From: a virus
Length of the DNA: 38,955 nt
Reading direction: 5' to 3' (one strand)
IMG/VR virus record: IMGVR_UViG_3300036766_000225
Coordinates: 1 to 38,955 of that record
Shown: positions 2,989 through 38,235 of the stretch, one piece after another
Layout: every line of letters begins with the position of its first letter
How positions within the stretch are numbered: position 1 is the first letter of the stretch
The notes under the pieces: generated by a model
Told to the model about the DNA's origin: nothing
Seen by the model: only the letters and a program-made list of their open reading frames with translations
Database searches by the model: none
Made by a program: the position numbers and the translations under genes

Positions 2989-3017
2989 TATATACGCTAG
3001 GCGGCGCGTTCCTGCAA
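2989..3017 (-). promoter_or_regulatory. Weak candidate sigma70-type promoter before the capsid gene
   Basis: On the minus strand TTGCAG (3012-3017) and TATATA (2989-2994) are separated by 17 bases. The match to consensus is 3/6 and 4/6. It lies in the largest gap of the structural block, immediately upstream of the capsid leader, so an extra start for capsid transcription would make sense. The evidence is weak. Confidence 0.3.
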
Positions 3018-15001: not shown

Positions 15002-15181
15002 TTGAACAGATTGAAAATCGAGATCGAGCGATTCTCTGACTTCGCTCAAGTCACCTGCATAGCTAATGACGGGACCAAATTCACTTGGTTTATGGACAAG
15101 TTCATCCTGCCGTCAGATCCGCGCATTCAGAAGCTCAAGAGTCGGTTGGTGCATCGGCCTTATGCGGAGGTGGCGGTATGA
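15002..15181 (+). CDS. Small hypothetical protein, first gene of the rightward operon
   Basis: I chose the TTG at 15002 because a strong GGGGAGAG ribosome binding site lies just upstream. The open frame begins at 14954 but that would place the start inside the promoter. The product has 59 residues, mixed alpha/beta, basic at the C-terminus, with a Phe-Thr-Trp-Phe-Met-Asp patch. No family is recognised. It is translationally coupled to the ligase gene by an ATGA overlap. First-expressed small phage proteins often target host machinery, but nothing specific can be seen. Confidence 0.7.
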   Translation: MNRLKIEIERFSDFAQVTCIANDGTKFTWFMDKFILPSDPRIQKLKSRLVHRPYAEVAV

Positions 15182-18022: not shown

Positions 18023-18032
18023 GGAGCACGAC

Positions 18033-18866
18033 ATGGCAGAACAAGCATTACAAGCAGTTCAGGCGCCGAGCCTGCTTGCCAAAATCGCGGCGCGTTACAG
18101 CGTAGATCCCGCAAAACTCATGAGCACACTCAAGGCTACGGCATTCAAAGTTCGCGAAGGTGAAGTTACGAACGAACAAATGATGGCGCTCTTGATCGTC
18201 GCCGATCAATATCACCTGAACCCGATCACTCGTGAGCTTTTCGCCTTCCCGGACAAGGGCGGAATTGTGCCGGTCGTGAGTATCGACGGCTGGGCGCGAA
18301 TCATTAACGACAATCCTGCACTAGATGGCATTGAATTCAATGATGGACCAGAAAACGAGCAAGGAATCCCGGAGTGGATTGAGTGTGTGATTTATCGAAA
18401 AGATCGCTCGCACCCTACGCGGTTACGTGAGCGCTTCCGCGAAGTGCGCCGCGATACACAGCCCTGGAAATCACACCCAGCACGCATGATGCGTCACAAG
18501 GTGCTAATTCAATGCGCTCGCGTGGCATTTGGGTTTTCAGGAATTTACGACCAGGACGAAGCTGAACGAATTGTAGACGTGTCGCAAACCGCGCAGGTCG
18601 TCGAACGCAAGCCGCTCACCGTCCAGGTTCGTCGCAAGTCCGAAGTTGAGAAAGCGCCGAATGAAGATGTCAATCGAACGCTTGAGGCCGCCCCTGTTCT
18701 GCTGAGTCTTGAGTCTTTGCTGGTTGAGCTGCAGCAAGCGGAATCTGACGAACGGATTGACTACCTCTGCTCAGTGGCTAAAGAAAATCTTACAAATGGC
18801 GGGCTCAAGGCATTTCAGAACGCCGCGACGAATCGCGCTAAAGAATTGAATGGAGAAGCGTCATGA
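18033..18866 (+). CDS. Single-strand annealing protein, RecT/Bet family
   Basis: I use ATG 18033 with AAGGAG seven bases before it (277 residues). The frame is open from 17991 but the upstream ATG lies inside the previous gene. Residues 20-100 follow the lambda Bet pattern: Tyr-Ser-Val-Asp-Pro, Thr-Leu-Lys-Ala-Thr-Ala-Phe, Ala-Asp-Gln-Tyr-His-Leu-Asn-Pro, then Gly-Gly-Ile-Val-Pro-Val-Val-Ser-Ile-Asp-Gly-Trp. It anneals complementary single strands, fed by the exonuclease and in cooperation with SSB. The C-terminal 80 residues are less conserved and helical, as usual. Confidence 0.92.
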   Translation: MAEQALQAVQAPSLLAKIAARYSVDPAKLMSTLKATAFKVREGEVTNEQMMALLIVADQYHLNPITRELFAFPDKGGIVPVVSIDGWARIINDNPALDGIEFNDGPENEQGIPEWIECVIYRKDRSHPTRLRERFREVRRDTQPWKSHPARMMRHKVLIQCARVAFGFSGIYDQDEAERIVDVSQTAQVVERKPLTVQVRRKSEVEKAPNEDVNRTLEAAPVLLSLESLLVELQQAESDERIDYLCSVAKENLTNGGLKAFQNAATNRAKELNGEAS

Positions 18867-18943
18867 GATATCTGCGCGGTTTGGCGAGGTTGGGTGGGGA
18901 ATGGCAGTGTCTTTCTCGGAAGTCGCCTAAATGGCCGGCGTAA
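18863..18943 (+). CDS. Possible 26-aa micro-gene between annealase and SSB
   Basis: ATG 18863 overlaps the annealase stop as ATGA and the frame runs 26 codons to a TAA inside the SSB gene, 13 bases past the SSB start. The peptide is basic, with Arg, Trp, Gly and one Cys. The arrangement imitates the coupling of other genes here, but the frame may only carry ribosomes to the SSB start, because SSB itself lacks a clear Shine-Dalgarno sequence. Confidence 0.35.
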   Translation: MRYLRGLARLGGEWQCLSRKSPKWPA

Positions 18944-19395
18944 ATTCATGCCACTTCGTGGGATTTTTAGGGAAAGATCCTGAATTACGTTACACCGCTA
19001 GCAATCAGGCCGTCGCGAATTTCTCCGTCGCGTGTAACGAGACATGGAAGGACGCGAACGGCGATAAGAAGGAACGCGTTGAATGGGTGCGCTGTCAGGC
19101 ATGGGGAAAGCTTGCGGAAATCGTAGGTGAATTTTTACATAAAGGTTCTCAAGTCTACATTTCCGGCCGCATGCAAACCCGCAAGTACGAGAAAGATGGA
19201 TCGGACCGATACACCACTGAAATCGTGGTGTCAGAAATGAAGATGCTTGGCGGAAAGTCGGAAGGCGGTTATCAACCGAAAGACGAAGACGCACCACCTG
19301 AATCGAGACGCGCTGCGCAGGCGCCAGATACGCGCCAACCCGCTCAGCAAGCGACGCTGGTCGATGACGGGTTTGACGATTCGATCCCGTTTTAG
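18931..19395 (+). CDS. ssb: Single-stranded DNA-binding protein
   Basis: The protein has 154 residues. The OB-fold is recognisable: an N-terminal strand with Gly-Phe-Leu-Gly-Lys-Asp-Pro-Glu-Leu-Arg-Tyr (about 11-21), Phe-Ser-Val-Ala-Cys-Asn-Glu (about 31-37), Trp-Val-Arg-Cys-Gln-Ala-Trp-Gly-Lys-Leu-Ala-Glu (about 52-63) and Gly-Ser-Gln-Val-Tyr-Ile-Ser-Gly-Arg (about 72-80). A disordered Pro/Gln/Arg linker leads to the acidic tip Asp-Asp-Ser-Ile-Pro-Phe, which recruits host replication and repair proteins. It is the last gene of the recombination module, before the gene-free stretch. Confidence 0.96.
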   Translation: MAGVNSCHFVGFLGKDPELRYTASNQAVANFSVACNETWKDANGDKKERVEWVRCQAWGKLAEIVGEFLHKGSQVYISGRMQTRKYEKDGSDRYTTEIVVSEMKMLGGKSEGGYQPKDEDAPPESRRAAQAPDTRQPAQQATLVDDGFDDSIPF

Positions 19396-23545: not shown

Positions 23546-24039
23546 GTCACCGCCGCAATTTCCGCCGGGTTCTTGGCTGCGGCGATTGCGTTCTTAAGCG
23601 CTGCCTGCTTATTCCATACCGCTTGCTGCGCTAAGAACACTGATGCGCCCATCTGCACTAACTCTGCAATCGTCAGCGTGCGGTCTTTGTTATCGTAGGT
23701 GCGCCAAGCGATTGCGTCCGGGGTCGCCAATCCAATCAGCTTGGCTTGTACGATCATCGTCAAAGCGTTCGCAATGCGTGCGCTTGTCGCCTCGTCGGCG
23801 TCCCAGGTGTCGCCGTCCCAGGTTGCCGTGAGGCCCAGCAACGCGGCGTTGCGTGCCTGCGTGATGTTGGCAGCCGACACGAATTTAGTTTCGACGAGCG
23901 TGCGCTCTGCGTCTGGTTTGTTTCCTTTGCCGACCCACGCGGAGTACTCTTGCCAATCCGTGTTGGCTGAATCAGCTGGGATGAAAGCGCCATCTTTGGT
24001 GCGGACGACGCCGCTACTGGCGAGTTTGTAATCGTTCAT
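23539..24039 (-). CDS. Tail fibre assembly-like protein (DUF4376 domain)
   Basis: I chose ATG 24039, overlapping the fibre stop as ATGA (166 residues). The frame is open to 24060. The C-terminal half carries the DUF4376 pattern: Gln-Ala-Arg-Asn-Ala-Ala-Leu-Leu, Trp-Asp-Gly-Asp-Thr-Trp-Asp-Ala-Asp, a helix, then Trp-Arg-Thr-Tyr-Asp-Asn-Lys and Leu-Thr-x-Ala-Glu-Leu. Proteins of this type are found next to the fibre gene and may help fold the fibre or bind its tip. The position fits exactly. Confidence 0.82.
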   Translation of the reverse strand: MNDYKLASSGVVRTKDGAFIPADSANTDWQEYSAWVGKGNKPDAERTLVETKFVSAANITQARNAALLGLTATWDGDTWDADEATSARIANALTMIVQAKLIGLATPDAIAWRTYDNKDRTLTIAELVQMGASVFLAQQAVWNKQAALKNAIAAAKNPAEIAAVTW

Positions 24040-25838
24040 AGTTCTGCGCTCGCTATCCAATTGCCACCAATGGTGGCCGACGCCGTCACGGTGGTGAATA
24101 TCGCGGTAAAAGATTGCTCTGCAACGTTTACGACTGAAGGGGTGCGCGCGGCACCACCTCCGTCACGCCAAGTCGTCGTAGCGCCGCTAGTGGGGTCATA
24201 CAGCGTCACGGTGGGCGCGGCGCGTTTACGTTCTTTAAAAGGACAAGTAACTTCTGCGGTTCCGGCAGAGTTCGCGATAGATCCATTCTGCCCAACCCCG
24301 GTGGCGGTGCCAGGGACAACGGATACTTCAAAAGATTTCTCGTAGTAGCGCTGGCACCGCGCGAACAACGCCCCATAGTGAATACGTTCAAACTCAGTAG
24401 CCGCGCTGCCGGGTTCCAGCTGCACACCCGTAATGTCGAGAGTCGCGGCAAGTGTACCGATTAGCGAAACAGCCCCAGTGACACCGATGACGTTGGCCGT
24501 CGCGGTCCATGCGCTCGCGGCGGCGCGGAAGGTGGCACCCGCCCCGAGATCCAAATAAATCCGGCCCCACTTCGAGGAGTCCGCGGGCCATGTGCCAGAG
24601 GTGTCGCCGGCGATTGCTACGGTTTTAGTTTCCCACGTGTTGGCGGCGTTGATCGTGTAGTTGAACGGGTACGTGCGATTGCCCGCCGCATTGGCGAGCG
24701 CCCCGCTGAACGCCCCCGTCAGCGACGACCGTACACGGAACGAGAGCGTGACGGTTTGCGCGCCCGCGCCCCCGAAGGCGAAATCTGACGCGTTAAACCC
24801 TTCGATCGGAAGTTCGAGCCCGTACGTCTGCCCGGCGCCGATGGCGGCGTCGGCTGTCGTTATCGTGGCGCGGAAGAAATGGGAGAAGCCCGTCGGCGGG
24901 GTGGCGGTGCTGCGCGCGATTGAAAACACCCCATCGGCGGCTTGACCGAAGCCGCGCCACATATCTGCGCCAAAGAAGTTCGCAGTGGTATTCACGACGA
25001 CGGCAGCACCGGCATTGCGTTGGTCGATGCGCGCATCGCCGTTGGTGATTCGGTTTTTAAACGCCGGCCCCGAGTTTGTCACGAACGCCAGCCAGATAGC
25101 AGCACCCACACTGGCATCGATGCAGTCATAGATAATATTGGCAGTAATATCATACCAATGCGATCCCACGCTGTATCCGTCGCCGCTATCGTCGGTGACG
25201 GTTGGGGATACCGTCTGTCCAAAAGCGTGTAGTTTAGTAAAAAACGACCCGCCCGCCCCCTCGCCCAGATTCGTACGTGCTGCGGCTGCTGTAATCCCCC
25301 CGGTGCCACCATCGATGACCGCGATAGGCGTCACTATGGGCGACCCAGTTAACGTGCTGAGTGCGCCCCAGAGAAGTGTCAGACCGTCCGCCGAATAAAG
25401 CACGGTCCCCGCAGTAGGATCTGGCAGCGTGAGGCCGGTCAATGCTGTGACCTCCTGCAATGTCACCGCTCGCTCGCTTAGCTCCGCGACTTGCTGGATT
25501 AGCCGCACGTTGCGGTCGAGTGCACCTTCCAGGGTCTCGGCGGGCAGCGCGTCGCCGTCCCTCAAGTCCACGCCTTGCGTGTACGCGATCTGACTCTTGA
25601 TCAGTAGCGTCTCGCCGCTGGCGGGTGCCGTCAGCATGGTGATGCTGCCGCCAGACGCCCACGGCGATGCACTCACCGTGTAGTGCGTGGTCAACGTTTT
25701 GACGGTCTCGTCGCCTGCGCTGTCGCGCAGCACCACGCGCAAGTCAGCTTCGGCAGTGATAGGGAACGCGAAGGCAAAGGCTGTGGTGGAGCCGTTGCCG
25801 GCGTAGCTCACCTTGTTAGTGGAGACACTGACAGTCAT
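24036..25838 (-). CDS. Tail fibre protein (T7-like N-terminus, receptor binding)
   Basis: The protein has 600 residues. The first about 130 resemble the virion-attachment domain of T7 gp17: Ser-Tyr-Ala-Gly-Asn-Gly-Ser-Thr-Thr-Ala-Phe-Ala-Phe, Leu-Lys-Ser-Gln-type strands and Leu-Glu-Gly-Ala-Leu-Asp-Arg-Asn-Val-Arg-Leu-Ile-Gln-Gln, the helix that trimerises. From about residue 255 there is a carbohydrate-binding-like part common in fibres: Asn-Arg-Ile-Thr-Asn-Gly-Asp-Ala-Arg-Ile-Asp-Gln-Arg-Asn, later Gly-Val-Gln-Leu-Glu-Pro-Gly and Cys-Gln-Arg-Tyr-Tyr-Glu-Lys. The C-terminal 110 residues probably form the receptor tip. Confidence 0.88.
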   Translation of the reverse strand: MTVSVSTNKVSYAGNGSTTAFAFAFPITAEADLRVVLRDSAGDETVKTLTTHYTVSASPWASGGSITMLTAPASGETLLIKSQIAYTQGVDLRDGDALPAETLEGALDRNVRLIQQVAELSERAVTLQEVTALTGLTLPDPTAGTVLYSADGLTLLWGALSTLTGSPIVTPIAVIDGGTGGITAAAARTNLGEGAGGSFFTKLHAFGQTVSPTVTDDSGDGYSVGSHWYDITANIIYDCIDASVGAAIWLAFVTNSGPAFKNRITNGDARIDQRNAGAAVVVNTTANFFGADMWRGFGQAADGVFSIARSTATPPTGFSHFFRATITTADAAIGAGQTYGLELPIEGFNASDFAFGGAGAQTVTLSFRVRSSLTGAFSGALANAAGNRTYPFNYTINAANTWETKTVAIAGDTSGTWPADSSKWGRIYLDLGAGATFRAAASAWTATANVIGVTGAVSLIGTLAATLDITGVQLEPGSAATEFERIHYGALFARCQRYYEKSFEVSVVPGTATGVGQNGSIANSAGTAEVTCPFKERKRAAPTVTLYDPTSGATTTWRDGGGAARTPSVVNVAEQSFTAIFTTVTASATIGGNWIASAEL

Positions 25839-28800
25839 TCGACCACCTCATAGCTTTTCGCTTTATCCGACAGCCGTTGCAAACTCTCGCGGCGCACCAT
25901 TTTTGTGTTTGCCATCTTTACAGGATCTGCGCCATCCGCAAGCCCCCGCTTCTCTCCCATTTCCAAGATTTTGTCTACGAGATCTGGAAATTCCGACATC
26001 ATTTTAGCCTGCGCATCTTCTAGATAAAGTTGTCTGACCTCAGAAACCATCCCCACTTTCTGACCGGGCGGATCTGCGCCATCGGTAGCGCGTTTATAGG
26101 CTTTGTCTTTAAACAATTCTCCGAGCGCTTCCCACATCCCTAATCCGGAAAGATCAAGTTTTACTCGGGTATGATCTTTAAATCCTACGCCGAAATACTG
26201 TGTCCCTACAGGTTTTTTGAGCGCATAACCCACCAATTGCTGATAACGGTCATACTGTTTTTCGTCTAACTCGACCCCCCGCAAGTTTTTGGACGGCCGT
26301 GAGAATGACATTTCCAGGCGAAAGAGTTCATCGGCCACGGGATCGGGTTTATCGTCCGCAACGGACACTCCGAAATACTGCTCTATCTTGATTGGCTTGC
26401 CTGAAATACTCCGAATGAGCGGCAGCGCTTTCCGCCCTTCGACGCTGCTACGCTTCGTAAGCTCTTCGCCGATGGTGACGGCGCGGCGTAAATAGGGGTC
26501 TTGTTCCGCCACGATTTGCGCTACCAAATTGGGCACTAGAATACCGGCTTGTCGTTGTAACCACCGCTGATATTGTTCAGGGTTGTAACTGGTGAAAACT
26601 TCCATCGCATCAGCGGTGGATTGCATGTAGGACTTGTTCACAACATTGTTCCCAATGCCAGCGATCAGAGAAGCGCCGAACTCTTCCGCCGTTAAGTCGT
26701 CCATCAGGCTCATTAAGATCACAGAGTCGGCGGCGATCCCTAAAATCTGTCCGCCGGGATCAAGGCGCGAGTATTGTGCCCACTGGCCACCTTTACCCCC
26801 TATCCGAATCGAGTTCGGTTTATATCCGCGTTCCAGCCAAAGTGCTTTAGCGGCGGGTCCGGTTGGCCCGCTCCCGGTGATGATAATCGGAGCGTTGTCG
26901 TCTTCTTCGTATCCAGAGCGCGCCGCAGCAAAAGCGGCAGCCCAGACGAGCGCCCCCGTGGAGGCTTTAGCCATCGCGAGATCACGTTCTGCGAGATCTT
27001 CACTGAACAATTCTCGCCACCACACGGGGCGCACCGGGAAAGCAACTCGCTGCGTACTAAAGTCGAGAATGTTAGCGGTCACTCGAACGAAGGGGGCAAT
27101 GACGACCCCCGCGCCTGACTGCCCTATCAAGTTCATGCCACGGCCGAACTTTCCTTGCAGTTGTTCAGACATCGTAACAATGCGCGCGAACTTCTCGGCA
27201 GCCGCTTCCTGGGTCGGCGTCAGGAAGTTAACGCCTTGATCGACATAATCACGCAACTCTTTACCCCGAAACCCGGCGTTGATGCCTTCTCGGGTTAATT
27301 CGGTGGCCGCTTTCCCCCGATAGGCGAGCGTTTTCCAGAATTGATCGACCGCCCCAAGGAGTCGCCCCGATGCGCGAGCTGTCCCGCCTATTCCGTCAAT
27401 GATCAGGGACATCAGATCCGTCATGCGACCTAACGCACCACGTTCCCCGGTGCTGGCGGGATCTGCGGTAGTGCGTGCGTCTTTAATCCCCAGCTTGCTT
27501 TTAACTGCGCTGGCCGTTTCTTTGACACTTGCGATCACATTCGGCCCGGTAATCGCGGGTGGCCTGCCGGTTGAGAGTTTCGCGCCTGTCCCTTCTGCGC
27601 CAGAGGCAATCTGCTGGGCTTCCTGTGGGCTGGATTTCCAGACTTCTTTAAGAGACATCGGCATCCGATAGCCGACCTGCGAGCCGACGCTTTCATTGTG
27701 GCGCAGTGCGAAATTGAACAGCTTGAAGGAATCGTGTAACGCGCCCCAATACGCGGACACCATCGCGGCGGCTTCGCCTTCCTGTACCCCTTGCTTCATC
27801 CCGACCATGCCAAACAGTTTGCCCCACTTGGCGGCGACCGCGTGCTCGGCGGTTGACATGAACAGCGCCGAAGCGTTGCCGAGAAAGTTACGTTCTTGCG
27901 TTTGAAGCCCGCTTAACGCTGAGCCGTACCAAACTTCGCGGAGCATATCGCCCGCACCAGGACGGGTGACGGCGCGCGCAAAAGCGTTCTTTTCGGCAGA
28001 GGTTGTGAGGGACCGATTCTTTTCAATCATGTCAAGAATCCCTTCAAGGCCACCCATTGAGTCCAACTGCGCTTGTGCGTCTCTCGCGGCCGAAGTGTCA
28101 ATTTTCGAGGCCATCGCATCGAGACTTTCAGCAGAGAGAGATCCCCCCGTCACTTTCTGTTTGAATTGTTGCAGTGCACGACCCGCTTCCGCAGTCATGC
28201 CGTTAAGTTGTAGTTGCACCGCAGCATTTAGAGATAACGAACGCAGGTAGGCGAGTTGCGTACTCTGCCCATTGTCGCCGGCAAGAATTTGCTGTTCTAG
28301 CTGAAAGGTGCGATCCCGTGCCGAGGCCAATACCATGCGCGTAGACTTAACCTGCTCGGCATTGAACGCCTGTCCGACATTTCGCCCCAGCATGAACCCT
28401 TCGTCTCGAGCGAATAGCGCATGGGCATTTTCGGTCGTCTGCGCGGCCGATACCACGCCGCGCGTGGCTTCCTCGGTTCGCGCCTCGCCGAGCATGGTCG
28501 CCACGTCCATGATCAAGCCATTGATTTGATCTGGGGCTTCGAGCTTTTCAAGATTGATGTTGGCGGCGTATTTCGGCAATGGCCCCACATGGCCCATGCG
28601 CGTTAACATTTGTTCTTGCTTAGCCAGTGCTTCACGCGAGGCATCCACTGCCAACGGAGACACGCCTTTTGCGAGCAGCTTCAACCCCTCCGCAAACGGC
28701 CCCCCGGCAGCCACCTCAACGCGGTTCCCCGCCTCCGGGTAGAACGCCCCGGCAAAGGGGTTGTCACCTTCCAGTGGTTCAGGCGACGGTTTTACGGGCT

Positions 28801-28918
28801 GTAGCGCGCCTTCTTTGGCTTGCGGCCCTTCGTTGGCGTAGACAGTCACCTCGGCATCGACGCCAGGCTCTGCGGACGGCGTGGACGCGGGCGAAAGCAA
28901 CTTAGCTTTAGAGGTCAT
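25835..28918 (-). CDS. Large internal virion (ejection) protein
   Basis: With 1027 residues it is the largest protein of the genome. The N-terminal 60 residues are Pro-rich and disordered. The remainder is long and mainly helical, with several amphipathic and moderately hydrophobic stretches (for instance about 640-680, ending in Ala-Ala-Phe-Ala-Ala-Ala-Arg) that could insert into membrane. No catalytic motif is recognised. Size, place among internal virion genes and composition fit the T7 gp16-type role of forming a DNA ejection conduit. The transglycosylase domain found in gp16 is not seen here. It overlaps both neighbours by ATGA. Confidence 0.78.
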   Translation of the reverse strand: MTSKAKLLSPASTPSAEPGVDAEVTVYANEGPQAKEGALQPVKPSPEPLEGDNPFAGAFYPEAGNRVEVAAGGPFAEGLKLLAKGVSPLAVDASREALAKQEQMLTRMGHVGPLPKYAANINLEKLEAPDQINGLIMDVATMLGEARTEEATRGVVSAAQTTENAHALFARDEGFMLGRNVGQAFNAEQVKSTRMVLASARDRTFQLEQQILAGDNGQSTQLAYLRSLSLNAAVQLQLNGMTAEAGRALQQFKQKVTGGSLSAESLDAMASKIDTSAARDAQAQLDSMGGLEGILDMIEKNRSLTTSAEKNAFARAVTRPGAGDMLREVWYGSALSGLQTQERNFLGNASALFMSTAEHAVAAKWGKLFGMVGMKQGVQEGEAAAMVSAYWGALHDSFKLFNFALRHNESVGSQVGYRMPMSLKEVWKSSPQEAQQIASGAEGTGAKLSTGRPPAITGPNVIASVKETASAVKSKLGIKDARTTADPASTGERGALGRMTDLMSLIIDGIGGTARASGRLLGAVDQFWKTLAYRGKAATELTREGINAGFRGKELRDYVDQGVNFLTPTQEAAAEKFARIVTMSEQLQGKFGRGMNLIGQSGAGVVIAPFVRVTANILDFSTQRVAFPVRPVWWRELFSEDLAERDLAMAKASTGALVWAAAFAAARSGYEEDDNAPIIITGSGPTGPAAKALWLERGYKPNSIRIGGKGGQWAQYSRLDPGGQILGIAADSVILMSLMDDLTAEEFGASLIAGIGNNVVNKSYMQSTADAMEVFTSYNPEQYQRWLQRQAGILVPNLVAQIVAEQDPYLRRAVTIGEELTKRSSVEGRKALPLIRSISGKPIKIEQYFGVSVADDKPDPVADELFRLEMSFSRPSKNLRGVELDEKQYDRYQQLVGYALKKPVGTQYFGVGFKDHTRVKLDLSGLGMWEALGELFKDKAYKRATDGADPPGQKVGMVSEVRQLYLEDAQAKMMSEFPDLVDKILEMGEKRGLADGADPVKMANTKMVRRESLQRLSDKAKSYEVVE

Positions 28919-29496
28919 GCGGCTTGGCTCATGAAATCTAGGAGATCTTCGAGATCGTGACGGTCTGATTCTATAACGGCCGCCAGGGGCAGTACGACGA
29001 CTACCGGCAAGCGGCGTTTAGGCGTCTTTGTCTTCCAGCGGGGGCGATAATGCTCCACGTGCGCGTTGCGGATGCTGGTATCGATCCCGGCTGTGGACTC
29101 CGCAGGAACGCTGAACGGCGTGTAGATGAGATCTGCGGCGGCTGGCACTAGGCTCAACGCCACGGCCCCGGTGAGCGTGTGCGTGGTATCCGCATCCATC
29201 GCAGCCCCTGGGACCATCGTTAAGGTGACTGCGCCCGCTAGCGTATGTTCACGGTCCAAGTCGAATGTGGCCGCAGGAGTCAGAGTAAGTATGACGGCTC
29301 CCGCTAAGATGTGCTCGCGATCTAAGTCGAACGCCGCTGCCACCGACATGCTGAAAGCGACTGCGCCGGTTAGGGTGTGGCTCGCAATCGAGGTAGCCGT
29401 ACGCTCTTGCGAAACTCGCCCGCCTGTTCCTCGCGTAAGCGAACTGCTGGTTTCTTGCCGTACTCGACTACCACGGCCTCGCGTGATTGCAGCCAT
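28915..29496 (-). CDS. Repeat-containing structural protein
   Basis: The protein has 193 residues and is joined to the previous gene by TAATG. The N-terminal 35 residues hold two copies of Thr-Arg-Gly-x-Gly-x-Arg-Val-x-Gln-Glu. Residues 40-127 are four 22-residue repeats starting His-Thr-Leu-Thr-Gly-Ala-Val (His40, His62, His84, His106), with alternating hydrophobic residues as in a beta-solenoid. The C-terminal tail is basic, then acidic. The role is unknown. The protein lies between the beta-helix protein and the large ejection protein, so a virion part is likely. Confidence 0.75.
   Translation of the reverse strand: MAAITRGRGSRVRQETSSSLTRGTGGRVSQERTATSIASHTLTGAVAFSMSVAAAFDLDREHILAGAVILTLTPAATFDLDREHTLAGAVTLTMVPGAAMDADTTHTLTGAVALSLVPAAADLIYTPFSVPAESTAGIDTSIRNAHVEHYRPRWKTKTPKRRLPVVVVLPLAAVIESDRHDLEDLLDFMSQAA
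29116..29379 (-). repeat. Four 66-bp coding repeats
   Basis: Four in-frame 66-bp units encode the 22-residue repeats of the protein at 28915-29496. The middle two protein units agree best. The DNA units have diverged, so the repeat is old and held by selection on the protein rather than recently copied. Confidence 0.7.
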
Positions 29497-30863
29497 TAGG
29501 CGAGTCCTACAATTTTCGGGGTGACATAAACGGTGGCGCTCGCTAGCCCTACCATCACCCGCGCGCTAATGTCGCCGATCTCAGCCGGAGTAAAGCTGCT
29601 AGCGGGGGCAAGTTTCCCAAACCATGCCGTGGCGTTCTCGCCGGTCCAATCGCTAGCGCCAAGACTTGAGGAGGCTTGATTTGCACCCGTGCCCGCAACG
29701 GCTACGCGGTCGTTCACCAGGGTCGCGGTGGGGAATCCCGTTGTGCCTTTGTAAGCCCACTCGCCCCACACCTCATCATCTTTGTAAGCTGTGGCGCTGC
29801 CATCTCGCAAGCATTCAAAGTACGGGGTAATTGCCGTGCTGATATCCGAGTTGTACGCATCAATCCAAGGACTCACGAACGGGGTATAGGTACTGCAATT
29901 CGCGGTGGTAATTATTTTCCACGAATAGGCATTCGTGCCGTCATAGAGCGCTGCCGCATTCTGGTAGATTCCGCTGCTGACAATGAGGCTGCCGAACGCA
30001 TCGTGGTACTCAAACGCTGAGTGCGTGTCGCCACTCGCGCAATCAGATAACCAGACCTTGACCGATCCTTTATTCGTGGGGTTTGGGGTTCCTAAAACGA
30101 CAACACCAGCTCCCAGTTTGCAGCGATCAAACCTGAACTGAAACTCCCCTGTAGTTGCAGTCCCGGAAACCAACGTCCCAGTCACAATACCAAAATTGCA
30201 ACCAATCGCATTAAAATTCGCTGGATTATTATCGCAGGTAAATAGCGTGGTCGGAGTTGATCCAGCGCTGGACAGAACACAACCCTCCAACTCAACAGCC
30301 CCCACCCCAACTTGCACTTTCTGCGCAGTATTCCCTAGTCGGAATGTACAGTCCATGAAGCGCGAATAGCTGTTCTGGGCTGCCGTATTGGTATCTCGGC
30401 CTATATTGATCGACGAGGATGAAGAGGTATTGCCGTGCCAAAAATAGCAAGATTCCCACTCGTAGTGTAGGCCGTCAGTCCCACACAACTGCATTAGATC
30501 AGAAATAGACCCGGCCGTACGCACTGTTAACCCATAGATGTGCGCCTTGAACGCGCCAGCGAACACTACAGTGCGATTCAACGTACTGTGGCCAATCCAA
30601 CTACCAGTTCCCATCGCGGTGGGAGTCACCGTCGCGCTTCCGCTATTCGTCGAGCAGATAAGGGAGATTGCAGCCGCGAATGAGTAAGTTACGTCGACAG
30701 CATTTTCCGCGTCGCCTGCCGGCACGCCATCGTATTGAATAATTACACGGTCGCCGGTAGCAGTGGCGGCCGCTAATGCAGTGGCGAGACTCCTGGCTGC
30801 CTTTGCCCATGTTTCATAGGGCGCGGTGTCTGAACCGCCTGTGGCAACAAAATAATCAGCCAC
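29496..30863 (-). CDS. Beta-helix protein (tailspike- or appendage-like)
   Basis: The protein has 455 residues from GTG 30863 and overlaps the upstream gene by 8 bases. The start, Tyr-Phe-Val-Ala-Thr-Gly-Gly-Ser-Asp-Thr-Ala-Pro-Tyr-Glu-Thr-Trp-Ala-Lys-Ala-Ala, is the capping pattern of right-handed parallel beta-helix proteins. The middle has repeated short strands with Asn, Gly, Cys and Ser ladders (Cys-Tyr-Phe, Cys-Thr-Phe, Cys-Asn-Phe), as in pectate-lyase folds. It has no clear catalytic motif. It may be a tailspike with enzyme activity, or a non-enzymatic appendage. Confidence 0.8.
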   Translation of the reverse strand: MADYFVATGGSDTAPYETWAKAARSLATALAAATATGDRVIIQYDGVPAGDAENAVDVTYSFAAAISLICSTNSGSATVTPTAMGTGSWIGHSTLNRTVVFAGAFKAHIYGLTVRTAGSISDLMQLCGTDGLHYEWESCYFWHGNTSSSSSINIGRDTNTAAQNSYSRFMDCTFRLGNTAQKVQVGVGAVELEGCVLSSAGSTPTTLFTCDNNPANFNAIGCNFGIVTGTLVSGTATTGEFQFRFDRCKLGAGVVVLGTPNPTNKGSVKVWLSDCASGDTHSAFEYHDAFGSLIVSSGIYQNAAALYDGTNAYSWKIITTANCSTYTPFVSPWIDAYNSDISTAITPYFECLRDGSATAYKDDEVWGEWAYKGTTGFPTATLVNDRVAVAGTGANQASSSLGASDWTGENATAWFGKLAPASSFTPAEIGDISARVMVGLASATVYVTPKIVGLA

Positions 30864-31221
30864 CGAGTTTAGCCTCGACTGCCACGACTTTGGATTCAGA
30901 AGCTTTCAGCGCTGAAATTTCATCGTCAGTGAGTTTCACCGAAGATTTCAAAACTGCATCGTCTTGCGCGCGAAGGTAGTCAAGGGACTTAGTTTCGGCA
31001 TTTGCCGTATCGACTTCGCGTTTGCGACGAACTCGACTATCTGCGAGTTCCTGTTCGAAGATTGGCACATAAGCGGCGACGTGCTTGTCGAGATCTAAGT
31101 CCTTGGCCGCAAAATAACTCCGCATGTACTCTACGCCTGCGTCGTCTATATAGCGTTCGACAACGTGCCGCGAGCCGTCAGCTTGCGGACTGGACTCAAT
31201 AGAAGTGGTGACGATAGCCAC
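30856..31221 (-). CDS. Small helical virion-region protein
   Basis: I chose GTG 31221, one base after the previous stop (121 residues). The open frame goes on to 31443 but that part has an Arg/Pro-rich sequence typical of a shadow of the neighbouring gene. The protein is charged: a beta part (Val-Ala-Ile-Val-Thr-Thr-Ser), Arg-His-Val-Val-Glu-Arg-Tyr-Ile-Asp-Asp-Ala-Gly-Val-Glu-Tyr, then long helices. Nothing specific is recognised. Probably a virion accessory protein or chaperone. Confidence 0.7.
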   Translation of the reverse strand: MAIVTTSIESSPQADGSRHVVERYIDDAGVEYMRSYFAAKDLDLDKHVAAYVPIFEQELADSRVRRKREVDTANAETKSLDYLRAQDDAVLKSSVKLTDDEISALKASESKVVAVEAKLGG

Positions 31222-31222
31222 T

Positions 31223-31630
31223 TTAGGCGTGCGTATTATTCGGCGTGATTTTGTAGGTATCGCCCGCGCCCATCGTGTACGGCCCGGACGCATCAACCTC
31301 AATCGCGAGAATGCGCTTAGTGCCGCCCGCCGCTTTGGTGTTGATGAAGTACCCCTGAATGCTGCCAGTCCAACCACCCGCCCCGGCAGTGAAGGTTTGC
31401 TGGGCGTAGGCGCGAGCATCGGCGGCCCCTGTCCAACTCGCATCGGTTAAGGTGATGCGCGCGTAGCCGGTGCCGGTGGGCTCGGTGAGTGCGGAGTGCG
31501 CAATCGTTTCACCGGGGGCGACGTTCGTGAATAAGCCAAGTTCTAAATCTGCATCGCGGTCGGTCAGCACCCGCTTCCACGTCAGATTAGCGATGGTCGC
31601 CTCACCTTCATCAGGACAGAATCCAGCCAT
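31223..31630 (-). CDS. Hypothetical virion-region protein
   Basis: The protein has 135 residues, starting at ATG 31630 two bases after the preceding stop. It is beta-rich with many Gly, Thr and Ala: Leu-Glu-Leu-Gly-Leu-Phe-Thr-Asn near residue 31, Trp-Thr-Gly twice, and Gly-Gly-Trp-Thr-Gly-Ser-Ile-Gln-Gly-Tyr-Phe near 87-97. Proteins of this kind are found in phage tails beside beta-helix proteins. No family is recognised with confidence. Confidence 0.7.
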   Translation of the reverse strand: MAGFCPDEGEATIANLTWKRVLTDRDADLELGLFTNVAPGETIAHSALTEPTGTGYARITLTDASWTGAADARAYAQQTFTAGAGGWTGSIQGYFINTKAAGGTKRILAIEVDASGPYTMGAGDTYKITPNNTHA

Positions 31631-31631
31631 G

Positions 31632-31883
31632 TCAGCCCCCTAGCTCGGGGAAATAGGACGCGGGAAGATTGCGCCCGATCCCAGGTTTCGTATCGTCTCG
31701 AATCAACACGGCATAGCCGCGCTTCTCCATCAACCGCTTAAACGACTGCGCGTCGTCCGTTGCACCCGCTTCTCCTCGATAGTTGAAGAAAAGCCCAGAG
31801 TCTAGTTTTTCTCCGGTTGATAAAACTGACACATTTAGGAGTTCACCGTAAGCAGTTACACTCATGTAAATATGTTGCGCCAT
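31632..31883 (-). CDS. Small hypothetical protein
   Basis: The protein has 83 residues, starting at ATG 31883 with GGAGG upstream. It is mixed alpha/beta with Phe-Phe-Asn-Tyr-Arg-Gly-Glu-Ala-Gly and Phe-Lys-Arg-Leu-Met-Glu-Lys-Arg-Gly-Tyr-Ala-Val-Leu. It lies between the ART-domain protein and a virion-region gene. The function is unknown. An accessory or immunity-type partner of the preceding protein can be imagined because of the adjacency, but nothing in the sequence shows it. Confidence 0.68.
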   Translation of the reverse strand: MAQHIYMSVTAYGELLNVSVLSTGEKLDSGLFFNYRGEAGATDDAQSFKRLMEKRGYAVLIRDDTKPGIGRNLPASYFPELGG

Positions 31884-31886
31884 TAT

Positions 31887-33782
31887 CTAAGCCTCCACAA
31901 TTTTGAACGTCTTCGCGCGTCCGGTTTCATCCCGTGACGCCACTTCGATTGTCGTGCCTGCCGCCAACTTAGCCCCGCTCGCTTTACCTTGCGCGGCTAC
32001 CGCAGTTAACACCTGTTCGAGCATATCGCGAAGCGCTTTCGGATCTTCGCCCTGTGGTTCCGGTTTTGCAGGCTCGATAGGCTTGTCGTTACGCTTTAAC
32101 ACTTTCGCGTGTTTATCATCGAACAGAACAAGATTGTGCGTATCGCCGCTTGCGCTACGACTGCCGGCATCTTTGTACTTGATACCCGGCACGCCCGCTT
32201 TGTCGAGCGCATCGGCTGCCATCTTCCAGGCGGTCTGCTCGTCAACGCCTTGAGTAGTAGCAATCTTGCGCGCGAGCGTTTCATAAACCTGTTGGCCGGT
32301 CGCGTCTTTATCGAGCCCCAGGAATTGAGTCAGCGGCTTGACTGCTTTGCGAATGGCGGGCGTTTGTTCGTTTAGGGGTTGATCCCAATGCAACATCTTA
32401 TCGACGACTTCATCGGGAATATCGACGGTGTAAAGCCCACCCGTCGCTTCTCCAACTTTCATCTTAACCGCGCCGGGGAGCATTAGTTTTTTACGCAATG
32501 TTTTTGCGGCAGCGATCAAGCTTTGATCATGTTCAGGATCGTAGTAATTCGCGATTCGTTCATCTAGTTTCTTAACAACAAATTCTTGCGCGCCTTTCTC
32601 GCCACCTGTGCTGTACGCAGCGCGTAAGCCAGAATCGTCGATCAATACGTCTTCTGCGAATGAAGACAACACGCTTTCTTCATCACTGTTGTTACGGGGA
32701 CCATAATCAAGCCATTTTTCGCCACGTTTTAACGGCTTTGAACCTATCGTTAACTTTTCTAGTTCAGGTTCACCCGCAAGCCGCTCGTGATACCCGCCAG
32801 CAATTTCTGGGTTCTCCGAAAAATACAAACCATGTCCGTATGCCGATGCCCCTTCGCCCGTCCCAATCTTCGTCTTATCAAACTTGTCGAACGTGTGCGG
32901 CGAACCATGAAAGGCCACCATGCCTTTCTGTGCGGCGATTGGACCGGGGCCTATCTCACCCGCGTACGCGCGGACATGTTTCAACGCTTTCGCAGTGAAT
33001 AAGAGACCTTCGACGGTAGCGCCCATCGCCGTGCCAACCGGCGCATTAACGAGCGCGGCTTTAATTCGGTTCGCCAGTGCCGTTTCCGAAGACTTCCCCA
33101 TCCCCGGCAATAAGGATTCAACGGTGTCACTGCCTAGGTAGTCTTTAAGTTCTTGCTCAAATCCGCTTTCTTTCGCAATTTTGAATAGATTATTTTCGAT
33201 GGGATCGAAAGCGGCGAAATCAACCGGCGCTGATAAGGCGGCATTTTTAGCGAGCGACTTAGCCACCCCGGACTTTCCTACTGCGTCAAACAGTTTTGCG
33301 CCGGCCAGCAATTTACTGATCGCGACAAAAGGCCCCATGAATTGGGCAGTGCCAGAAACGAAGGTTTCTAGCTTCCCTTTGTTCTGAACTAAATCTGGCA
33401 TCGGGCCAGGGTCTGGAATATGAACCCCGGACGGCTTCAAGTTGTCTGGTGTAACGGGCTCACCTTCGATATTTACCAATGGCGAATTGGTGGCGATAAA
33501 GTCCGCTATCTCCCGCACCGTCCGCCCCAACTCCCATACTGAGCGCGCTACGCCCTCACCAGCGCTCGCGGCCAGTCGTCCCGGCGTGTTGGTGTCAGGT
33601 TCAGACGTGGACGGCGTGGCGGGCGTCTCCGGCGGCTTAACGGCGTACTTTGCGAGGTAGGCGTCGCTGTACGCTTGCAGGTAGGCTTCATCCGGCAGCG
33701 CCCCTACATCATCCGCAATGAGCTGCCCCCCCGCGCTGGCACCATCGTGGCGAGCTTGGTAGGCGTTGACTAACCCGGTCAC
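31887..33782 (-). CDS. Virion protein with an ADP-ribosyltransferase-like domain (ART-PolyVal type)
   Basis: The protein has 631 residues, from GTG 33782 (GTGA overlap). Residues 1-270 are a helical, partly Gly/Ala-rich virion part, with a hydrophobic stretch at about 140-165. The domain at about 288-560 opens with Val-Ala-Phe-His-Gly-Ser-Pro (289-295), then Gly-His-Gly-Leu-Tyr-Phe-Ser-Glu (316-323) and ends with Asn-Leu-Val-Leu-Phe-Asp-Asp (550-556). This is the pattern of phage polyvalent-protein ADP-ribosyltransferases, in which the first His and the Tyr bind NAD. Residues 570-631 are linker and tail. Carried with internal virion proteins, it may be ejected with the DNA to modify a host target. 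Activity and target are inferred. Confidence 0.78.
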   Translation of the reverse strand: MTGLVNAYQARHDGASAGGQLIADDVGALPDEAYLQAYSDAYLAKYAVKPPETPATPSTSEPDTNTPGRLAASAGEGVARSVWELGRTVREIADFIATNSPLVNIEGEPVTPDNLKPSGVHIPDPGPMPDLVQNKGKLETFVSGTAQFMGPFVAISKLLAGAKLFDAVGKSGVAKSLAKNAALSAPVDFAAFDPIENNLFKIAKESGFEQELKDYLGSDTVESLLPGMGKSSETALANRIKAALVNAPVGTAMGATVEGLLFTAKALKHVRAYAGEIGPGPIAAQKGMVAFHGSPHTFDKFDKTKIGTGEGASAYGHGLYFSENPEIAGGYHERLAGEPELEKLTIGSKPLKRGEKWLDYGPRNNSDEESVLSSFAEDVLIDDSGLRAAYSTGGEKGAQEFVVKKLDERIANYYDPEHDQSLIAAAKTLRKKLMLPGAVKMKVGEATGGLYTVDIPDEVVDKMLHWDQPLNEQTPAIRKAVKPLTQFLGLDKDATGQQVYETLARKIATTQGVDEQTAWKMAADALDKAGVPGIKYKDAGSRSASGDTHNLVLFDDKHAKVLKRNDKPIEPAKPEPQGEDPKALRDMLEQVLTAVAAQGKASGAKLAAGTTIEVASRDETGRAKTFKIVEA

Positions 33783-35239
33783 TTAGCCGGCCCTCCCGGC
33801 GTGGCCCCGTTCAGTTTGAACAATTCCGCCTCGTTGTTGAATTCGCGATCAGTGATATCCCCCCGGCGATAAGCGTCTCTTAGTTCCAGCAGTGAGGGAT
33901 AACGCGGTTTTGGCTGTTCTCCTTTCGTTTCATACCGCGCGATGATATCGACGGCAGTTCCCGCCGCATCGAAATTCTCGTCGGCTACTGCACGCTGATA
34001 AAATTCTCGCAAGGCAAGGCCGGCGATGACGTTAGTGCGGCCTTCTTCCCCATGTCTCATGTCGCCAGGAATAACGCCCAGAGCTTTCTCAATGGTCTTC
34101 GCGCCTTCCTTGTAATCGCGCGTAGTGGTGGCCGCCGCGCCGTTCTGGAGAATTTGCAGAAGGCCGTCTCGCTCCTTCCCGCTGATTGCAGACGGGCCGT
34201 CAAGCGCCCCTAGCACGTCCCCCACGGACAGGTTCCCCCGGTAGGCTTGCAGCTCCATCCGCTTGGCGTTGGTCGGATCTCCGGGCCCCCCAGCTTGCAG
34301 GTAAGCGCGTTGCGTGTCGTACAGAGTCCGGTACTGCTTGCTATCGATTTCCCCGTTTCGGCGAGGGGTTTCCAGGTCGAAGTATTCGCCCTTGTTAATC
34401 TGACCCATGTATTCGCCATAGTTCAGTTCTTGCGTGGCTTTGTGATCGCGCAAGTTCTTAGCTTCGTCATGGGTTTGCTGCGCCACATTCTGCCGTGCCA
34501 AGGCTTCCGAGCGTTTCTCGGCGTTGATGGTTAGTCGCTGACGAGACTCTACCGTCATCGCGTTATAGCGACCCGCGTACAAGTCTTCGAGCACACTGTC
34601 GGGATCGTGGTACACGCGCAGATTCAACTCATCTTCCATCGTGCCATCGACGAACGCGCGGGCTTTTTTCTCGGCATCCAGCGGAGATATATAGCCGGCT
34701 GCGGCGGCACCTTGGAGCATGTTCATGGTCTGGCCCATGAGCCGGTTACGCTCTTCCGGGATCTGACCTGCCATCTCTTGACGACGCTGAAAGAGTTGAT
34801 CTTCCAAGGCACCACGCGACCAGGCGATTTGCTGCACGATCTGCGTCTTCTGCGCTTCGAGTCCTTGCGTGACGGAGAATTCGGCGACCTCCTGTGCAAT
34901 GGCAGCTTGGGAGAGGGGATCGTCAATCCCCTTCAAAGCCATCTCTCCGACTTTGGTCAGCGCTTCGTTAGAGTCCTTGGCGAGCGTATTGAAGTTTGCG
35001 GGATTGGCCGAGCGCTGCACCCACCATTCCCCGTAGGCTTTGCGCATCCCGAGCGTGCGCAGTGCAACATCGGTGGTCCGCTGCGCGGCCTGTGCGCGTT
35101 CAGCGCGTTCCAGCGTGGCTTGTTGCAGGACATTCAATCCACGCGCGGCCCCTTCTTCGGCCACGCCCGCCCCTTGGCGGAGGACGCCTCCGGCCGAGTC
35201 AGGTTCTACGGCCTGCCGCGAATAGGGTTGAATCCGCAC
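33779..35239 (-). CDS. Internal virion protein, helical
   Basis: The protein has 486 residues, from GTG 35239. It is almost fully helical, with high Ala, Gln, Glu and Arg and coiled-coil-like stretches (about 30-70 and 230-275), no membrane segment and no enzyme motif. Composition, size and position between two other internal virion genes fit a T7 gp15-like ejection or core protein, but no direct sequence mark proves it. It overlaps the ART-domain gene by GTGA. Confidence 0.75.
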   Translation of the reverse strand: MRIQPYSRQAVEPDSAGGVLRQGAGVAEEGAARGLNVLQQATLERAERAQAAQRTTDVALRTLGMRKAYGEWWVQRSANPANFNTLAKDSNEALTKVGEMALKGIDDPLSQAAIAQEVAEFSVTQGLEAQKTQIVQQIAWSRGALEDQLFQRRQEMAGQIPEERNRLMGQTMNMLQGAAAAGYISPLDAEKKARAFVDGTMEDELNLRVYHDPDSVLEDLYAGRYNAMTVESRQRLTINAEKRSEALARQNVAQQTHDEAKNLRDHKATQELNYGEYMGQINKGEYFDLETPRRNGEIDSKQYRTLYDTQRAYLQAGGPGDPTNAKRMELQAYRGNLSVGDVLGALDGPSAISGKERDGLLQILQNGAAATTTRDYKEGAKTIEKALGVIPGDMRHGEEGRTNVIAGLALREFYQRAVADENFDAAGTAVDIIARYETKGEQPKPRYPSLLELRDAYRRGDITDREFNNEAELFKLNGATPGGPAK

Positions 35240-35596: not shown

Positions 35597-36226
35597 TTAC
35601 CTCGCTGCGGTCACCGGACGCCAACCAGCGCCCCCAGGGACCGCGTTTGCCTGTGCCCTTGAATAGTTCGGCCGCGTCACTCGGCGCGGTGTCGCAGTAG
35701 CCGCCTCAGTCACTGCTGCGTCATCTTCTGGTGTCCACGGCGCGCCATAGTTTACCCGCCCCGTGCTGTTGATTAACGTCGCGCCGAAATTCGACAGCGC
35801 CTGAGTGCGCATCGCATTGGCCTGTCCGTGTGCTTGCCAGATTGCGTTAGCCGCCTCGGTTTTCCGCCGTTTGTCTTCGGCGACTGCCGTATCGTACAGC
35901 GCATGTTGATCTAACGATTGCCGATAGATGAAGTCGTTTAAGACTTCCATTGGCGTGCCTTCCAACGTCACCCCAGACTTCGCATAGTTCGCCGTCTGCG
36001 TCTGATTAAACAGCCGCTGTTCGTTACGAAGAATCTGCGCCTTGTCCTGATACGAACGCCACGAGGCCGCCGCTTCATCCCGCCATACCTCGGCATTGAA
36101 GCCGGCTTGTTTCTCTAACGCGCTCGCGCCTTGGTAGGACTTGACGGTGGATAGTAAGCCGAGCCCAGCCGATACCCACGGCAACGCTTTGGTAAAAATA
36201 CTCCCGACAGTAGAAAGTAGGCTCAT
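35597..36226 (-). CDS. Internal virion protein A-like
   Basis: The protein has 209 residues and is coupled by ATGA to the tube-like gene. An N-terminal hydrophobic, Gly-rich segment (about 8-28) is followed by a long helix (Ala-Ser-Ala-Leu-Glu-Lys-Gln-Ala-Gly-Phe-Asn-Ala-Glu-Val) and a repeat of Gln, Asn and Arg. Gly-Val-Thr-Leu-Glu-Gly-Thr-Pro-Met-Glu-Val-Leu at about 85-96 is a pattern seen in internal core proteins of podoviruses. It probably takes the place of T7 gp14, which opens the outer membrane. Confidence 0.78.
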   Translation of the reverse strand: MSLLSTVGSIFTKALPWVSAGLGLLSTVKSYQGASALEKQAGFNAEVWRDEAAASWRSYQDKAQILRNEQRLFNQTQTANYAKSGVTLEGTPMEVLNDFIYRQSLDQHALYDTAVAEDKRRKTEAANAIWQAHGQANAMRTQALSNFGATLINSTGRVNYGAPWTPEDDAAVTEAATATPRRVTRPNYSRAQANAVPGGAGWRPVTAAR

Positions 36227-38235
36227 TCGTCTTCGACCACTAAGTTACCCACTAACGATAACACGGTCGCGGGCAAGGGTAAGTCCGCCTCGATAGTGAC
36301 TTGCGCTTCCTCATCCCAGCCCGCGAGCTGGACCTCGCGCAAGCCGGTGAATGGTTGCAAGGGGGCCCCCATGATATCGGCGGCCGTGCGCATCGCGGTG
36401 CGTTCGCCATTGATGAGCAAGCCGATAGTGCGATAGAGCCGCGCCTTGAAACGACCCCACGACTTGAACTTGCCCTGCGTGCTGCCGTCCTGTGCGCCGA
36501 CGATACCGGGAAGGGTGACTAGACGAGACGTGTAGGCCAAGCCTACAGCGGCTTTAGTCACGGCCAGGGTGAGGGTGATCGCGCCGCCCGAGACGGTTCT
36601 ATCAGGCTGCACGGCCCCATTACCCAATACCGCAACGGTTTGGCCTTCCAGGTGCGTCAATCCGCTTAACGTGAGGGTACTAGCCCCGTCGTAGACGAGC
36701 CCGCTATCGACGAAGAAAGCGTCTTCAATATCGTCCACTAAATCGAACGGTGGCGAGAAATATTCGACATAACGCTTGGTGGAACTGTTGATCGTCCGTT
36801 TCACGCTCACCCACGTCTGCGTGTAGCCCTCGGTGCCGTTGGCCGCTGTCACCGGAATGCACGCCACGGACTCGACAATGGCGTCCCCGGTGCCGAACGC
36901 GCCGCCTAGGACATGCCGTCCCCAAGCGACTATCTCCTGCTCTCGATCGTAGGTCAGGGCGAGCAATATCCCGTCCGCGCGCGTTTCCCAGACAATGGAG
37001 TCCGGTTCTTTGGCATAGGCGAATTGCGTGACGCCCGGCGACGTAATGTGTTCGGCGAGCAAGGACACATCTGGAGCGCGGTAGGCGTCGTCTTTGAACT
37101 CGAAGGACAGTTCTCTAATCTTGCGCTTAGAACGCGACAGGAACAGCACCACATTGCCGGCGACAATCGGCATCAGGTACGCGCTGCCGTGTTCGGTCTG
37201 CGGCGTGATGCGGACATTCGTCGGAGTCAACGGTTCGGACGGACTGCCGGCCGTGAATTCAGCGTTAGCCGTGCCGACAAAGAGAATATCTTTCGCGCGC
37301 AACCACTGAATGGCATTCATGGTCTGACTGCTGATCGTATAGTTCACCGCGTCGGTATCGCCCACCCCCGGCGTCATGTCTTCGTAATCCGCGACCGCCG
37401 AGCCCCACAGCGTTTGCGGCTGGAATAATGAACCCCCGAAGTACAAGCGTTGCTCAAAGAATGAGACGGCGCGCGGGAAGCCTCGATAGGTGGACCATGC
37501 GCCCTCACGCCAAGTCGTCACCGCAGTGGTGTTGCCGAATGTCACTAACACCGTGGCATTGACGAGCGTCGATGAGGTAAAGCCGGTAATGACAGCCACG
37601 CCCCGAGTGCCGCCATGCGTGATACTGATCAGCCCACCAGGTTCAGTGCCGGTCGGCCCCATCGTGGTGACGAAGTACGCGACCGAGGCGGTAATTGTGA
37701 TCGCCCCCGTCGTCGCACTCGGGGCCATCGTCGTGGCCGTGGCGTTATCCGGGAGGTACGGTCCGTCCGTGAACACCACTTCGGTAATCGTCCAGGACGT
37801 GTGCGCAGTACGTGAGAGTTTGCGCGGCCAGTGAGAGCGATGCGCGAAGTACATCAAGTCCGCCGTCTGCGCGAACTGCAACTCGAACAGCACCGCTTCG
37901 GCAAACTCGGTCGTTAGTTCGTAGGGAACGCCAGGGGCGGTTTCTATCTGTCCGTTGTCGCGATAGAACCGAATAACGAGGTTACCGAATTCCAGGATGT
38001 AGGCTTGTTCAACACTATACTCGAAGGGGAGTAGACGGCCTTTGACGGCCGAGCTTTTTTCTTCTGAGACGAACACGCTGCCAGTGCGGCGGTCAGCGCC
38101 GCCGTGCGGCATGATTAGAAAATTCTCTAGTTCTGAAACTCCCGAGCCGTAGCGCGCAATATCCTCGCGGCCAAGCAAACGGGGCGATAGTTCCCCGGCT
38201 GTAAAATTAGTCTGGCAAGGAGCAACACGCGCCAC
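36223..38235 (-). CDS. Tail tube / stabilisation-like protein (tail tubular protein B type)
   Basis: The protein has 670 residues, from GTG 38235. The first 70 residues (Phe-Thr-Ala-Gly-Glu-Leu-Ser-Pro-Arg-Leu-Leu-Gly-Arg, Tyr-Gly-Ser-Gly, Glu-Asn-Phe-Leu-Ile-Met-Pro-His-Gly-Gly, Arg-Arg-Thr-Gly) are a strong signature of podovirus tail tube/stabilisation proteins. It continues with beta-rich domains including Arg-Val-Ala-x-Phe-Glu-Gln-Arg-Leu-type (Ser-Phe-Phe-Glu-Gln-Arg-Leu-Tyr-Phe-Gly-Gly, about 257-267). It closes the tail below the adaptor and holds DNA in. It is the best recognised protein of the tail region. Confidence 0.88.
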   Translation of the reverse strand: MARVAPCQTNFTAGELSPRLLGREDIARYGSGVSELENFLIMPHGGADRRTGSVFVSEEKSSAVKGRLLPFEYSVEQAYILEFGNLVIRFYRDNGQIETAPGVPYELTTEFAEAVLFELQFAQTADLMYFAHRSHWPRKLSRTAHTSWTITEVVFTDGPYLPDNATATTMAPSATTGAITITASVAYFVTTMGPTGTEPGGLISITHGGTRGVAVITGFTSSTLVNATVLVTFGNTTAVTTWREGAWSTYRGFPRAVSFFEQRLYFGGSLFQPQTLWGSAVADYEDMTPGVGDTDAVNYTISSQTMNAIQWLRAKDILFVGTANAEFTAGSPSEPLTPTNVRITPQTEHGSAYLMPIVAGNVVLFLSRSKRKIRELSFEFKDDAYRAPDVSLLAEHITSPGVTQFAYAKEPDSIVWETRADGILLALTYDREQEIVAWGRHVLGGAFGTGDAIVESVACIPVTAANGTEGYTQTWVSVKRTINSSTKRYVEYFSPPFDLVDDIEDAFFVDSGLVYDGASTLTLSGLTHLEGQTVAVLGNGAVQPDRTVSGGAITLTLAVTKAAVGLAYTSRLVTLPGIVGAQDGSTQGKFKSWGRFKARLYRTIGLLINGERTAMRTAADIMGAPLQPFTGLREVQLAGWDEEAQVTIEADLPLPATVLSLVGNLVVEDE

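Follow-up and report, generated by a model that had tools for sequence, protein, structure and literature searches.

An ART-PolyVal-like domain in a putative ejection protein encoded by a podovirus record

Does the open reading frame at 31887-33782 of the IMG/VR virus record IMGVR_UViG_3300036766_000225 encode an ADP-ribosyltransferase (ART) that is carried in the virion and enters the host with the phage DNA? The whole 38,955-base record was analysed and is referred to below as the window. T4 Alt is an ART that enters the cell with phage DNA, and it serves as the model of action for the ARTs of phage polyvalent proteins, which are the commonest predicted protein-modifying enzymes of those proteins (PMC5512222). 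Injection of polyvalent-protein ARTs was predicted, by analogy with T4 Alt, by Iyer et al. 2017 (PMC5512222), with Alt placed in the R-S-E clade and the polyvalent-protein ARTs in the H-Y clade. Head-packaged ARTs may be widespread, approximately 44% of phage ARTs being found in head-packaging-like contexts (PMC9503650). A sequence-only reading of the window had put forward such an enzyme "in a podovirus of this kind"; that idea was already in print, the published prototype being the vRNAP ART of Roseovarius Plymouth podovirus 1 (CBX87992.1), also an ART in a podovirus virion protein, and relatives of the window protein carry ART-PolyVal names in UniProt. The unusual features here are the signature of the active site and a split gene arrangement. 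We propose, with moderate confidence, that the product of the gene is an ejection (internal virion) protein with an ART-PolyVal-like enzyme domain that would be injected, use NAD+ and modify the host.

The open frame is real and lies on the minus strand (33782→31887), a strand that the sequence-only reading had left unstated; the plus strand across 31887-33782 is full of stop codons. Its GTG start is preceded by a GGGAGG Shine-Dalgarno-like stretch and overlaps the stop codon of the gene at 33779-35239 by 4 bp (GTGA), and for these two reasons the ART gene and its upstream neighbor, encoding a 486-aa protein, are probably translationally coupled. The first 127 bases of the window are identical to the last 127 bases, as expected of a complete genome. 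The gene order is that of a podovirus, with the structural genes all on the minus strand and crossing the record's join:

6898-8403, minus strand, terminase large subunit (structural block)
4150-5772, minus strand, portal (structural block)
2997-3917, minus strand, scaffold (structural block)
1988-2848, minus strand, major head protein (structural block)
778-1398, minus strand, tail tubular A (last before the join)
36223-38235, minus strand, tail tubular protein B, 670 aa (phrog_376, E 9e-190; 47% to Pelagibacter phage HTVC035P)
35597-36226, minus strand, internal virion protein (IVP) A-like, 209 aa (phrog_418, E 2.8e-11)
33779-35239, minus strand, ejection-type protein, 486 aa, in the IVP-B position upstream of the ART gene (gene order and overlap)
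31887-33782, minus strand, ART-bearing ejection-type protein, 631 aa, GTG start (open reading frame and translation)
28915-31883, minus strand, cassette of small genes (83, 135/195, 455 and 193 aa) between the ART and IVP-D genes
25835-28918, minus strand, internal virion protein D-like, 1027 aa (phrog_6651; internal virion protein D of HTVC011P and ProddE)
24036-25838, minus strand, tail fibre (follows the IVP-D-like gene)

The tail/ejection operon order, the shared strand and the overlap with the upstream gene bear out the earlier placement of the protein among ejection proteins. No database match was found for the 486-aa protein itself; counterparts occupy the same place in L081 (521 aa) and L105 (723 aa). 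The cassette genes at 28915-31883 likewise gave no family or database match, and the 193-aa protein among them contains a repeated 'HTLAGAVxLTxxPAAxxDxDxxH'-like unit. The terminase resembles its counterparts in Vibrio phage VA-RY-3, Cronobacter phage Ss1 and BcepC6B (39-42%); for tail tubular B the resemblance is to Pelagibacter phages of the HTVC035P/HTVC010P type (up to 47%). A DNA-level search against phages returned zero matches.

The earlier reading had combined a virion-type N-terminus with an ART-like domain, and the residue numbers it gave for two motifs (HGSP at 292-295 and GHGLYFSE at 316-323) are exact. The features within the gene are:

32967-33359, minus strand, ejection-protein segment, residues ~142-272, N-terminal to the ART domain (IVP-D segment homology)
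32070-32933, minus strand, ART-like domain, residues ~284-571 (own profile, sub-threshold PF18760 match, 58-sequence alignment, AlphaFold2)
32898-32909, minus strand, motif 1, HGSP (292-295), first strand, H292 invariant
32814-32837, minus strand, motif 2, GHGLYFSE (316-323), second strand, Y320 invariant
32115-32195, minus strand, motif 3, GVPGIKYKDAGSR...NLVLFDD (530-556), with invariant S541-R542 and N550

The Pfam family ART-PolyVal (PF18760) matches residues 288-333 with an E value of 2.1e-5 and 25.8 bits (up to 27.4 bits), below its curated cut-off of 31.2 bits, and the match is confined to motifs 1 and 2. The same family is matched by 49 of the 58 members of our alignment (best E 7.9e-12). 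None of 20,000 shuffles of the window protein contained the spaced pattern HG[ST]P...GxGxY...Y, so the motif pattern is not due to chance. A profile of the whole 289-aa domain, built from four sequences, detected at least 574 relatives in viral-contig stretches; whole-domain relatives are present in five named phage records and in 89 bacterial-assembly stretches, mostly inside proteins of 1000-4500 aa. No close relative came up when viral and genome contigs were searched with the whole protein as a single query, and NCBIfam and PADLOC gave no match for the ART protein. Across the 58 diverse sequences the invariant residues are H292, G293, P295, G307, G309-G311, G316, G318, Y320, Y331 (11 residues past motif 2), D467, S541 and R542.

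Other assignments were considered and set aside. PDB sequence-profile matches to helical proteins (HIV gp41 constructs, BipD) were judged to be chance, and cholix toxin appeared in that search with an E value of 0.13 only. The Pfam assignments RES and DUF3990 both fall below their cut-offs and are retained as hints only. The label 'endolysin' (phrog_873, residues 438-567) was passed on from a multidomain family of 1277 aa, whose C-terminal part (1091-1206) is the part matched, overlapping the ART domain here. Membership in the T4 Alt family was also rejected: the Alt-type (R-S-E) Pfam family gave no match to the window protein at E values up to 1, and an H-Y-type signature is found instead, with a His in the first predicted strand (H292) in 58 of 58 sequences and a Tyr in the second (Y320) in as many. 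The parallel with Alt drawn by the earlier reading holds as a functional analogy and fails as kinship, since the two belong to different ART clades; Alt is moreover a myovirus head protein.

In the AlphaFold2 model of the window ART domain (pLDDT 85.2, pTM 0.75; pLDDT 91 for a shorter homologue), H292 is located in the first predicted strand and Y320 in the second. A viral structure library yielded matches down to E 1e-17, the best of which are phage proteins, several of them named ART-PolyVal. Against the PDB, ART toxins take all of the first seven places for the window model, at weak E values of 0.11-0.76; the smaller homologue has PARP1, a RES toxin and a diphtheria-toxin homologue of ART fold among its top 10, also weak (E 0.14-1.9). 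Taken alone, the PDB fold evidence is suggestive only. The comparison with ART folds proposed by the earlier reading was answered in part as regards the split beta-sheet and its NAD pocket, with PDB matches that are ART-led but at E 0.1-0.8, and with a motif 3 that lacks the canonical acid; the domain assignment itself is upheld by the sub-threshold Pfam match, the relatives, the confident model and the ART-PolyVal-named viral fold matches taken together.

Motif 3 is where the window domain and the known family part. The window domain shares with ART-PolyVal / Tox-ART-HYD2 (PF18760) the HG-[ST] of motif 1, the G-[LIF]-[YF]-F of motif 2, the virion-protein context and the proposed injection. 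It differs in scoring below the Pfam cut-off (27 versus 31.2 bits), in being larger, with a helical insert, and in its signature (GTGEGAQAYGHG, WDKPL, GSR, and a motif 3 Asn without Asp-Gly). The canonical ART-PolyVal copies compared, from Roseovarius Plymouth podovirus 1, Dinoroseobacter phage R7L, Roseobacter phage RD-1410Ws-07 and bacteria (the bacterial ones scoring 71-91 bits), all contain [YFH]DG, and the next strand usually begins with Glu or Gln; the ART of Roseovarius Plymouth podovirus 1 resides in a 3760-aa N4-like virion RNA polymerase, with a Phe in its second motif and a Glu in its third. At the [YFH]DG position, by motif order that of the clade's strand 5 aspartate, members of the window family carry G-[IV]-[PKR]-G (GPG in the window protein), and Asn stands at the Glu/Gln position. 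This equivalence was drawn by eye, because the profile-profile alignment of the two families (probability 94%, E 1.4e-7) covers motifs 1 and 2 only and stops short of motif 3. N550 is Asn in all 150 sequences that have that column, near-copies included (76/76 viral and 74/74 bacterial-assembly). The Asn in place of Glu/Gln, together with the missing [YFH]DG aspartate, makes transferase activity uncertain.

The two types of domain also occur side by side. In L188 a canonical ART copy is followed approximately 155 residues later, in one polypeptide, by a window-type copy, and a ~2787-aa protein of Pseudomonas chengduensis (L177 / G005:C18) carries four canonical ART-PolyVal copies and one window-type copy. 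Since both are found within single polypeptides, canonical and window-type ARTs are, as judged from their sequences, distinct subfamilies and not variants of one locus. A further, tentative reading is that the window type is a distinct and very common ART subfamily (H-Y-Y plus invariant Asn) with non-canonical chemistry, such as the hydrolysis or phosphorolysis of NAD+ or the modification of a small molecule or nucleic acid, which may have been slotted repeatedly into ejection proteins for delivery at entry, in phages including one with an archaeal host assigned. In a tree of 64 ART domains the window domain adjoins those of L051, L035, L010, L105 and L107 with weak support (61/84), and the ARTs fused to IVP-D do not form one group; repeated shuffling of the ART domain is possible, though not proven. 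We found no description of the window-type signature, the IVP-D split or the IVP-D fusions in the open-access literature searched, nor any proteomic or biochemical data or tested activity for the family. The ART family seen here is widespread in phages, and its biochemistry is only predicted.

The same Asn speaks for an alternative, namely that the ART fold is kept while the protein hydrolyzes or phosphorolyzes NAD+, transferring nothing to a macromolecule, so that injection would lower host NAD+ or generate a signalling metabolite. In the RES family Y and N replace S and E, and NAD+ is phosphorolyzed (PMC9503650); an invariant Asn replaces the acid in all 150 sequences here, the window protein and one relative have sub-threshold RES matches, and a RES toxin is among the weak fold matches of the homologue. 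Against this, the RES scores are below cut-off, the rest of the signature (HG, Y, Y) belongs with the H-Y type and not with RES, and depletion of NAD+ at entry would harm the phage too. We regard this alternative as unlikely.

The ejection context of the ART gene is well supported by homology and gene order. The virion-type N-terminus seen by the earlier reading corresponds to a segment homologous to phage IVP-D proteins: a profile of a ~112-residue IVP-D segment, built without the window, matched residues ~142-272 of the ART protein at 28-30 bits (E ~1e-8, 100 sequences), compared with 5.4 bits for the best of 200 shuffles, and BLASTP aligned residues 142-272 to L070 with an E value of 0.002. 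The downstream gene product, of 1027 aa, has homologues in the internal virion protein D/gp16-type ejection proteins of HTVC011P, ProddE and Roseobacter (CRP) phages, and a segment of CRP-125 gp38 is homologous to the N-terminal segment of the window ART protein; no ART match was detected in these phages. An ART and an IVP-D homologue form one polypeptide in the viral contigs L081, L070, L085 and L025 and in a fifth locus, L163, from a Gemmatimonadaceae assembly. Residues 107-991 of the window IVP-D align to residues 695-1458 of the L081 protein (E 4e-72), and in L081 the genes for tail tubular A and B are followed by those for a 136-aa protein (IVP-A position), a protein of 521 aa (IVP-B position) and the ART/IVP-D fusion. 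Because ART and IVP-D are joined in five other loci and an IVP-D segment lies at the N-terminus here, the window arrangement is, on this comparative evidence, a split and rearranged ART/IVP-D polyprotein, its halves separated by a few small genes.

Other loci vary the same theme. In L019 (6581-10759) the ART is the C-terminus of a 1392-aa IVP-B/lysozyme-type protein upstream of an IVP-D gene; by eye, that protein also has peptidase-like and lysozyme-like regions. L105, the closest relative among the matches listed (41%), has tail tubular B, a 387-aa protein, a 723-aa protein and then the ART. A virion or packaging marker accompanies 61 of 160 ART relatives; all 91 separate marker ORFs among the 160 lie on the ART strand and none on the opposite strand, and in 14 ORFs the marker region is inside the ART ORF itself. 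No ART was present within the stretches examined of the structural-module relatives L090 and L094-L098, which makes the domain an accessory and not a core ejection component. Late-operon position alone is no proof of packaging, and phiGT1 and many contigs have a stand-alone ART gene beside the terminase or portal; a late-made ART that stays unpackaged and acts within the cell that makes it, whether on components of host or phage or by excluding other phages, would account for these facts. The five ART/IVP-D fusions and the IVP-type N-terminal segment speak against it, and we consider it quite unlikely. The fusions in sister phages make co-ejection with the DNA, as the sequence-only reading had suggested, likely.

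In the explanation we favor, an injected host-modifying ART, the protein would be produced late and packed alongside the other ejection proteins, and would enter the cell as infection begins. There it would bind NAD+ through an H292-Y320/Y331 pocket and attach ADP-ribose to a macromolecule of the host, in the simplest case a protein, in favor of the phage. Candidate targets are the transcription machinery, suggested by the fact that no RNA polymerase gene was recognized among the window genes examined, or a factor of host defence. The phage ART AcrIF11 works as an anti-CRISPR (PMC12421852), which makes a defence target as plausible as RNA polymerase. A virion-borne ART modifying a host macromolecule at entry is, we infer, the most economical reading, although the weak PDB ART matches, the motif 3 Asn and the relatives L090 and L094-L098 without an ART count against it. 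An ART domain that has lost catalysis and acts in the ejection apparatus as a module for folding or packing would fit the lost third acid, the weak PDB fold scores and the lack of a tested family enzyme activity in the literature searched, but is highly improbable given the strict H292, Y320, Y331, S541, R542 and N550 across divergent mobile copies, unexpected for filler, and the sister structural modules that have no such domain.

Among named phages, Sulfitobacter phage phiGT1 gene 5 and vir555_00054 share the ART subfamily of the window protein, with which they are 28-32% identical. They differ in layout: in phiGT1 the ART is a 387-aa stand-alone gene near the portal, and in vir555 (L003, BK063671.1) it forms part of a polyvalent protein of 1974 aa encoded in the ejection-protein region. 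The host of vir555 is given as Methanomicrobiales, and window-type ART domains may therefore act in archaea too. The window offers a convenient form of the enzyme, a 631-aa protein with a single ART in a ~39 kb genome as against polyproteins of 2000-3000 aa, and so compact an ART protein would permit a direct test of injection and of the modified targets. The IVP-D split here and the fusions elsewhere show effector domains plugged into the ejection apparatus by phages.

The ART domain has a GC content of 50.9% compared with 55.8% for the genome, and a GC3 of 0.52 compared with ~0.7 in core genes; the lower values fit acquisition from elsewhere and prove nothing. Between the terminase and portal genes, 5769-6962 (minus strand) encodes a 397-aa protein that has a glycine-rich hydrophobic stretch, GVGPAISASIGAVTGGLTGGPLGALTGALSG, and no family match; it is possibly another ejected membrane-active protein. 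Outside the virion operon, 12132-14327 (minus strand) encodes a 731-aa protein that joins a SNF2-type helicase to an N6/N4 DNA methyltransferase (phrog_16; PF01555, PF00271), a fusion which recalls the methylase-helicase dyad of polyvalent proteins. On the plus strand, an RNA ligase domain (PF09414, E 2.8e-11) is encoded at 15085-15735, in a block that also holds RecT (17991-18866) and SSB (18931-19395).
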